Source of the DNA: Cryobacterium sp. MP_M3
GTDB taxonomy: Bacteria > Actinomycetota > Actinomycetes > Actinomycetales > Microbacteriaceae
Assembly: GCF_015752155.1 (NCBI RefSeq)
Contig: NZ_JADOVI010000006.1
Span: forward strand, 1 to 64,000
DNA length: 64,000 nt
Direction of reading: 5' to 3'
Shown here: one piece after another, positions 25,338 through 26,179 of the stretch
Layout of the letters: every line of letters begins with the position of its first letter
Numbering within the stretch: the first letter of the stretch is position 1
Notes under the pieces: generated by a model
Told to the model about the DNA's origin: nothing
Seen by the model: the letters and a program-made list of their open reading frames with translations, nothing else
Databases searched by the model: none
Position numbers and translations under genes: made by a program

Positions 25338-25469
25338 TCAGATGCCGCAGGAGCCGCCGCCGCAGCATCCGCCGCCGGCGTCGCCGAGAAGTTCGATGGT
25401 GGGAACGGGGGCCGCTGCCGTGGTGCCGACCGGGGTGGTCGCCTCGGCGGTGCTGGTCTGTTCGGTCAT
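25338..25469 (-). CDS. Small Cys/Gly-rich protein coupled to an FrnE-like oxidoreductase
   Basis: 43 residues, ATG 25469, sharing the ATGA with the stop of the oxidoreductase gene upstream; stop TGA 25338-25340. Sequence from the N-terminus: MTEQTSTAEATTPV, a short Ala/Thr linker, IELLGDAGG, and a C-terminal Cys cluster GCCGGGSCGI. There is no signal peptide or membrane helix. The three Cys in a Gly-rich tail suggest metal binding, a redox substrate of the neighbouring DsbA-like enzyme, or a precursor-peptide-like tail. I recognise no named family. The 4-nt coupling and clean reading frame argue that it is real. Confidence 0.65.
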   Translation of the reverse strand: MTEQTSTAEATTPVGTTAAAPVPTIELLGDAGGGCCGGGSCGI

Positions 25470-26125
25470 TTGTTCTTCTCCTCGGTTTTCTCGGTGGCGG
25501 CCTGGCGGAGAGCCTGCGCAAAGGTATCAGGGTCCTGGGCTCCGGAGATCCCGTACTTCCCGTCGATGACGAAGAAGGGAACGCCCTGGATGCCGTAGGC
25601 GTTGGCCTGGGCGACGTCGGCCTTGACGTCGGCCAGGTAGTCGTGCCCGGTGAGCGCCCTGACGACGTCGGCGCGGTCGAGGCCGATTTCGGCGGCGAGG
25701 TCGGCGAGGTCTTCGATCCGGCCCACGTGCAGGCCGTCGACGAAGTAGGCCTTGAGCAGTCGTTCCTTCATCTCGAGCTGGCGCCCGTGCGCCTTCGCGT
25801 AGTGGAGCAACTCGTGCGAGATGACGGTGTTCGTCTGGTGCACGGAGTCGTAGTCGTAGTGCAGGCCGACGCTCTCGGCGATTCCGGTGACCCGCTCGAG
25901 CATCTCCTCGACCTGCGCCACGGGCAGGCCCTTCCGCTGGCTGAGGTAGTCGACCGGGCTGCCGTCGAAGTCGACGGGGGTATCGGGCGCCAGTTCGAAG
26001 CTGTGGTATTCGACCTCGACGTCACCGTCGAAGAGGGCCGCACCGGCCTCGAATTTGCGCTTTCCGATGTAGCACCAGGGGCACTGCACGTCGGACCAGA
26101 TGTCTACTTTGATGGTTTCGCTCAC
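25466..26125 (-). CDS. DsbA-family oxidoreductase, FrnE-like
   Basis: 219 residues from GTG 26125 (SETIKVDIWSDVQC). The thioredoxin-fold active site is CPWCYIGKRKFE, with the C-P-W-C motif and the conserved IGKR helix of the FrnE subgroup. The inserted helical domain carries YAKAHGRQLEMKERLLKAYF and DIAE-type segments, and the cis-proline loop is GVPFFVIDGKYGISGAQ. FrnE proteins are cytoplasmic (no signal peptide here) and are linked to disulphide isomerase activity or to polyketide maturation. It overlaps a 43-residue Cys-rich gene downstream by 4 nt. Confidence 0.92.
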   Translation of the reverse strand: MSETIKVDIWSDVQCPWCYIGKRKFEAGAALFDGDVEVEYHSFELAPDTPVDFDGSPVDYLSQRKGLPVAQVEEMLERVTGIAESVGLHYDYDSVHQTNTVISHELLHYAKAHGRQLEMKERLLKAYFVDGLHVGRIEDLADLAAEIGLDRADVVRALTGHDYLADVKADVAQANAYGIQGVPFFVIDGKYGISGAQDPDTFAQALRQAATEKTEEKNK

Positions 26126-26179
26126 TCTGAAGCCAACCGGCGGCGCGCCCCAGTATTCCCACCCCGGCATCTCCTTCAC

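Follow-up and report, generated by a model that had tools for sequence, protein, structure and literature searches.

The 43-residue protein encoded immediately downstream of an FrnE-like oxidoreductase in Cryobacterium sp. MP_M3 is most likely, by sequence comparison, the C-terminal CX4C redox tail of FrnE carried on a gene of its own. We consider it probable that this tail, encoded in a reading frame that overlaps the enzyme gene, acts in trans in the manner described for Deinococcus radiodurans FrnE (drFrnE, DR_0659). The FrnE tail itself is known.

The FrnE-like enzyme and its coupled small gene

The two genes lie on the minus strand of the window, a 64,000-nucleotide stretch of contig NZ_JADOVI010000006.1, and consist of the following parts.

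25466..26125, minus strand: FrnE-like oxidoreductase of DsbA fold, 219 residues from GTG 26125, without a C-terminal CX4C of its own (Pfam, PDB, AlphaFold/Foldseek)
26072..26083, minus strand: active-site CPWC (Cys15 and Cys18, numbered from GTG 26125), read from the sequence and invariant in 42 aligned FrnEs
25466..25469, minus strand: ATGA start/stop overlap, read from the sequence; 129 of the 156 split loci share the start at −4
25338..25469, minus strand: gene for the small CX4C protein, 43 residues, the proposed trans-acting FrnE tail (open reading frame conserved next to FrnE; no Pfam or NCBIfam match)
25404..25469, minus strand: codons 1–22, a variable, linker-like stretch rich in Thr, Ala and Pro (pN/pS 0.73–0.81 and length variation)
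25383..25403, minus strand: codons 23–29, hydrophobic segment PTIELLG, paired through relatives with PLTMLG of drFrnE
25347..25364, minus strand: C-x4-C, Cys36 to Cys41, invariant alignment columns, paired through relatives with Cys239/Cys244 of drFrnE (residue numbering of PMC8945050)

The enzyme is a DSBA-like thioredoxin domain protein (PF01323, E 2.2e-40, 138.9 bits against a cut-off of 25.6), with an alternative, longer GTG start at 26179. Its closest match is 99% to Cryobacterium sp. HLT2-28. The fold and the CPWC site are those of drFrnE (PDB 5cnw, 5co3, 5coh, 5xwh, 5cp1), which is recovered by a PDB sequence search at E 5.6e-53 and accounts for the five best Foldseek matches of the AlphaFold model (pLDDT 96.8), with TM values of 0.94–0.95 in four and 0.92 for the C239S mutant. 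The mycobacterial Rv2466c, which is CPWC-type and mycothiol-dependent, is a DsbA-fold relative that is also matched by Foldseek, but more weakly. The window enzyme ends in EKTEEKNK and the CX4C sits instead in the next reading frame. According to PMC8945050, a C-terminal CX4C in the same chain is an optional trait, found in many FrnE members and not in all, so its absence from the enzyme chain does not exclude membership of the family.

The small gene starts at ATG 25469–25467, and this codon shares the sequence ATGA with the TGA stop of the enzyme, which confirms the overlap noted in the preliminary description. A Shine–Dalgarno-like run, GAGGAG, lies directly 5′ of the ATG. The product (MTEQTSTAEATTPVGTTAAAPVPTIELLGDAGGGCCGGGSCGI) ends in GGGCCGGGSCGI and has, besides the C-x4-C, an extra cysteine, Cys35, that is present in many Cryobacterium. 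It matches no Pfam or NCBIfam model.

The six neighbouring genes that were scanned (DnaG, HD phosphohydrolase, Dus, undecaprenyl diphosphate synthase, RecO and LeuA) are all housekeeping genes, with no RiPP maturation or export gene among them. This bears on the earlier proposal of a peptide-like product, taken as a RiPP-type or exported peptide that the FrnE-like enzyme would modify. That proposal found no support. The layout of a small leader followed by a Cys/Gly tail is what such a peptide would have, and the name FrnE derives from an antibiotic cluster (PMC8945050), but neither a maturase nor a transporter occurs among the six neighbours and the gene is found at the same site in dozens of species, which makes such a product scarcely credible.

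Conservation of the small protein and of the coupling

Within the genus, a small reading frame follows FrnE in 40 of the 42 named Cryobacterium loci examined, the exceptions being C. frigoriphilum and C. melibiosiphilum. Of 30 loci from a search with the 43-residue query, 25, the window's own included, have the small gene flanked by FrnE and Dus; the five without FrnE, all at E 0.007 or weaker, were rejected as chance matches, and most entries of the longer match list are weaker than these. Met1, Pro23, Ile25, Cys36 and Cys41 are invariant across 25 aligned small proteins. The tail takes several forms in Cryobacterium (CCGGGSCGI, SCEGDSCGI, CGCGSCGCGA, CCGGGCCS), with two to four cysteines per protein and the C-x4-C constant in all. 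Judged from these alignments, the conserved feature is a C-x4-C behind a short hydrophobic stretch. The protein had been described as Cys/Gly-rich; the run of Gly and Cys is a variant.

Selection appears to act unevenly along the chain. Over all pairs of 44 close relatives, chosen by an FrnE identity of at least 79% and by the Cys-tail pattern, pN/pS is 0.45 for the C-terminal half and 0.81 for the N-terminal half; for nine hand-picked close pairs the values are 0.27 and 0.73. On these figures the C-terminal half looks constrained, and the N-terminal half seems to evolve almost freely.

In other genera of the Microbacteriaceae the corresponding small reading frames, of the form x-PLTMLGDPDAAACEGDxCxIP, overlap the FrnE stop. 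A tail gene follows at least one FrnE copy in 55 of 60 loci fetched across the family, these being places hand-picked over genera from at least 173 family genomes with FrnE, seven of them already known as carriers when chosen. Conservation of the tail and of its coupling in relatives, the check proposed in the preliminary description, is thus borne out in the genus and in the family. Many split tails of these other Microbacteriaceae (L060, L239, L254, L257) continue after the CX4C with a conserved segment, IP[ED]HHEQAVVNRRLDEDxV.

The cysteine content also bears on whether the FrnE transcript encodes a small metal-binding, metallothionein-like protein for cadmium, zinc or copper. Up to four cysteines are found in Cryobacterium forms (CGCGSCGC, CCGGGCC), and cadmium raises drFrnE expression, as stated in PMC8945050. 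Outside the close group, however, 89 of 98 split proteins have exactly two cysteines, no histidine is invariant among 20 aligned split proteins, and the match is to a redox tail (see below). Such a role is improbable.

A total of 218 loci with distinct FrnE sequences comprise 154 with a split CX4C, two with a split CX5C (L082, L108), 15 fused and 47 with neither; one fused locus (L181) also has CX5C in place of CX4C. These numbers describe a non-random sample: 40 loci, all split, came from searches that used the small protein or its profile as query; the named set gives 55 unique loci (50 split, five none); the family set gives 55 unique loci of its 60 (49 split, six none, the five non-unique ones being split); and the class search, 70 loci hand-picked over genera from at least 177 class genomes with FrnE, gives 67 unique loci (17 split, 15 fused, 35 none). 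One of the six family loci counted as lacking the tail (L063) has the gene after its second FrnE copy, and four loci that fit the split pattern (L130, L176, L145, L162) were scored as lacking it after the peptides were read. The tail is dispensable, because two Cryobacterium species and several genera have FrnE without the small gene and 35 of the 67 class-search loci have neither form.

The start of the split gene lies at −4 in 129 of 156 loci, at −1 in seven, 1–3 nt past the stop in three and elsewhere in 17 (7–97 nt after the end of FrnE or 8 nt before it); the overlap is widespread but not universal. Ribosomal frameshifting in place of a separate start is not favoured, since start offsets range from −8 to +97 and upstream codons vary. 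A C-x4-C reading frame starts at −4 or −1 in 125 of the 202 non-fused FrnE loci for which 300 nt or more of downstream sequence is present, against a total of 1.6 in dinucleotide shuffles of that downstream DNA; the loci are related and were partly chosen for the gene, and the ratio is not a p-value.

The association with FrnE was also recovered by a profile of 20 coupled reading frames of other genera, none from the genus of the window, that contains no FrnE residues. In 199 genomes of the same family it gave 120 matches, at least 106 of them directly 3′ of FrnE on the same strand and at least seven elsewhere; 14 of the 20 profile rows derive from genomes among the 199, and those matches are expected. 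Of the 14 matches not placed by FrnE eight were inspected: FrnE adjoins in five, including L272, and the others lie beside an FrnE remnant (L271), at a contig edge (L276) and alone (L270). One further unplaced match lies in L112. At the level of the family, similarity and synteny are established by these sequence comparisons.

Several of these loci depart from the usual arrangement. In L272 (1193–1810, genome G188) an FrnE shortened before the C-terminal helix is in frame with a CX4C tail, possibly a secondary fusion or an assembly error. L112 (764–1005, G119) has a second tail gene preceded by an FrnE fragment, and L063 (G187) has tandem FrnE copies with a tail gene after one only. The stand-alone gene in L270 (1583–1717, G164) encodes a 44-residue CX4C protein (...LDLLGDTDAGACSGGFCVLPTEK) about 0.8 Mb from a tail-less FrnE; no clear copy was found in 28 other genomes of its genus, the best match having 41% identity at E 0.0018.

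In L271 (1906–2193, G197) a CX4C tail persists next to the decayed remains of FrnE, immediately upstream of Dus. That arrangement, together with the 47 of 218 loci without a tail in either form, is what would be seen if the small gene were a non-functional leftover, a tail decaying after a stop arose in FrnE. Against such decay, the start codon and overlap are widely kept (129 of 156 at −4) and the C-terminal half is under apparent constraint by pN/pS; we regard it as very improbable.

Relationship to fused FrnE tails

When the other-genera profile was compared with 177,635 PDB sequences, the tail of drFrnE (residues 224–257, within a C-terminal end that reads ...HPAPLTMLGQDAPAEGCEDGQCAVPQRP) came first at E 4.6e-6. 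For the C239S entry of drFrnE the E value drops to 0.0075, and the tail of Streptomyces coelicolor SCO1869 (PDB 3gl5) is third at E 0.013. An hhalign comparison of the split proteins with 11 fused tails, drFrnE included, gives 95.8% and places Cys on Cys. In a sample of 296 genomes from the phylum the profile matches 12: in six, which belong to a single genus, it falls on the C-terminus of a fused FrnE (for example SPLTLVDDGDAQACGPDGCAVPQQ), in three on a split gene after FrnE and in one on the stand-alone reading frame; two (G570, G672) look like chance. The profile is insensitive and missed known fused tails in this sample, such as that of G041 (fused FrnE, L151). By these comparisons the C-terminal CX4C tail of drFrnE, with its PLTMLG segment, can be recognised in the split proteins of other genera. 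The small protein had been said to fit no known family, and this still holds for Pfam and NCBIfam models, but not for its relatives in other genera. The drFrnE enzyme ends in its tail, whereas the counterpart described here forms a protein apart, with a start codon of its own and a linker-like N-terminus; in SCO1869 and the fused actinomycete FrnEs the tail is likewise part of the enzyme, often as C-GPDG-C.

The Cryobacterium form stands further away. Its own profile finds no relative in the PDB, drFrnE included, and it aligns weakly both with the other split proteins (52.9%) and, by hhalign, with the fused tails (76.7%). At E 0.01 in the genome search, the other-genera profile misses the small genes of the window and of three congeneric genomes. 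The window peptide scores 9.5 bits with that profile, within the range of shuffled sequences, and 0.5% of its own shuffles reach this value. Three congeners whose FrnE is 91–93% identical (L019, L198, L200) read SCEGDSCGI and score 20–21 bits, compared with a maximum of 18.6 bits over 11,258 scored shuffles. In the close group 35 of 58 peptides outscore at least 98% of their own shuffles, four of the 58 being rows of the profile. A joined query gave no Cys-on-Cys alignment with drFrnE and served solely for reading the drFrnE tail. The window protein is therefore best described as a divergent member, tied to the family by its position, its C-x4-C and the bridging congeners.

With drFrnE as the root, a quickly built tree of 149 FrnEs, without bootstraps and with some long branches, places all 94 split rows in one branch of 111 (SH-aLRT 98), together with 17 tail-less and no fused rows. 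The sister of this branch consists of three fused enzymes of the same order (SH-aLRT 97). The split label needs eight changes on the tree, compared with a mean of 44.7 when shuffled. This pattern is most simply explained if a fused gene was split once and losses came later; the opposite direction may also be compatible with the tree. Transfer between lineages is likely because the split branch takes in rows of other families of the class and one Microlunatus.

Proposed action in trans

A review (PMC8945050) describes every drFrnE crystal as having one molecule's tail next to the active site of a second molecule, with a Cys244–Cys22 disulfide in crystals grown with DTT; the role of the tail was proposed from these crystals and from mutants. 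Mutation or deletion of the tail cysteines lowers NADPH/thioredoxin reductase-linked reduction of DTNB, the tail is not needed for insulin reduction with DTT, and it helps to regenerate the active site of another molecule (same source). A further FrnE homologue carries CxxxxC (PMC11164402).

By analogy, we infer that the small protein plays in trans the part that the drFrnE tail has between subunits. Termination–reinitiation at the ATGA would allow it to be made in step with FrnE. The PTIELLG segment would dock by the active site, and Cys41 (equivalent to drFrnE Cys244) would form a mixed disulfide with the nucleophilic Cys15 of CPWC, to be resolved by Cys36. The Cys36/Cys41 pair would in this way carry electrons between FrnE and a reductant, either thioredoxin reductase or mycothiol; models for thioredoxin reductase and MshC score above their cut-offs in the window genome. 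In the AlphaFold model of a fused relative the tail has a pLDDT of about 50 with no docking predicted, and such a disordered tail fits action on another chain but proves nothing.

The preliminary description had offered a redox substrate among its suggestions, and for a protein with a redox-type C-x4-C tail a redox substrate or partner of the oxidoreductase is the best reading. A dedicated substrate in the narrower sense, a client or sensor whose C-x4-C disulfide is made or broken by FrnE and which signals redox state elsewhere, would agree with the tight coupling and with two cysteines in a chain that is probably disordered, and the extension HHEQAVVNRRLDEDxV of some relatives could bind something else. 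In sister lineages, however, FrnE carries the motif within its own chain, which leaves little room for a separate reporter role, and we think a dedicated substrate unlikely. A tentative possibility, also unlikely, is a disordered tail that diffuses freely as a gene-encoded thiol cofactor and shuttles electrons from or to thioredoxin reductase or mycothiol on one side and FrnE, perhaps with other oxidoreductases, on the other; the stand-alone gene (G164/L270), the extra copy (G119/L112) and the further conserved segment hint at it.

The action of a tail on its adjoining FrnE remains the preferred reading, and a search of open-licence papers, a set outside which the primary drFrnE papers lie, found no split, translationally coupled FrnE tail among the papers listed. 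A tail gene that is separate yet adjacent and constrained suggests that exchange between chains is real. It also offers a two-part system, in which each component can be titrated or deleted independently and the two can be mixed, and it gives a name and a test to unmodelled reading frames of 26 to fewer than 80 residues in the Microbacteriaceae and some other actinomycetes.
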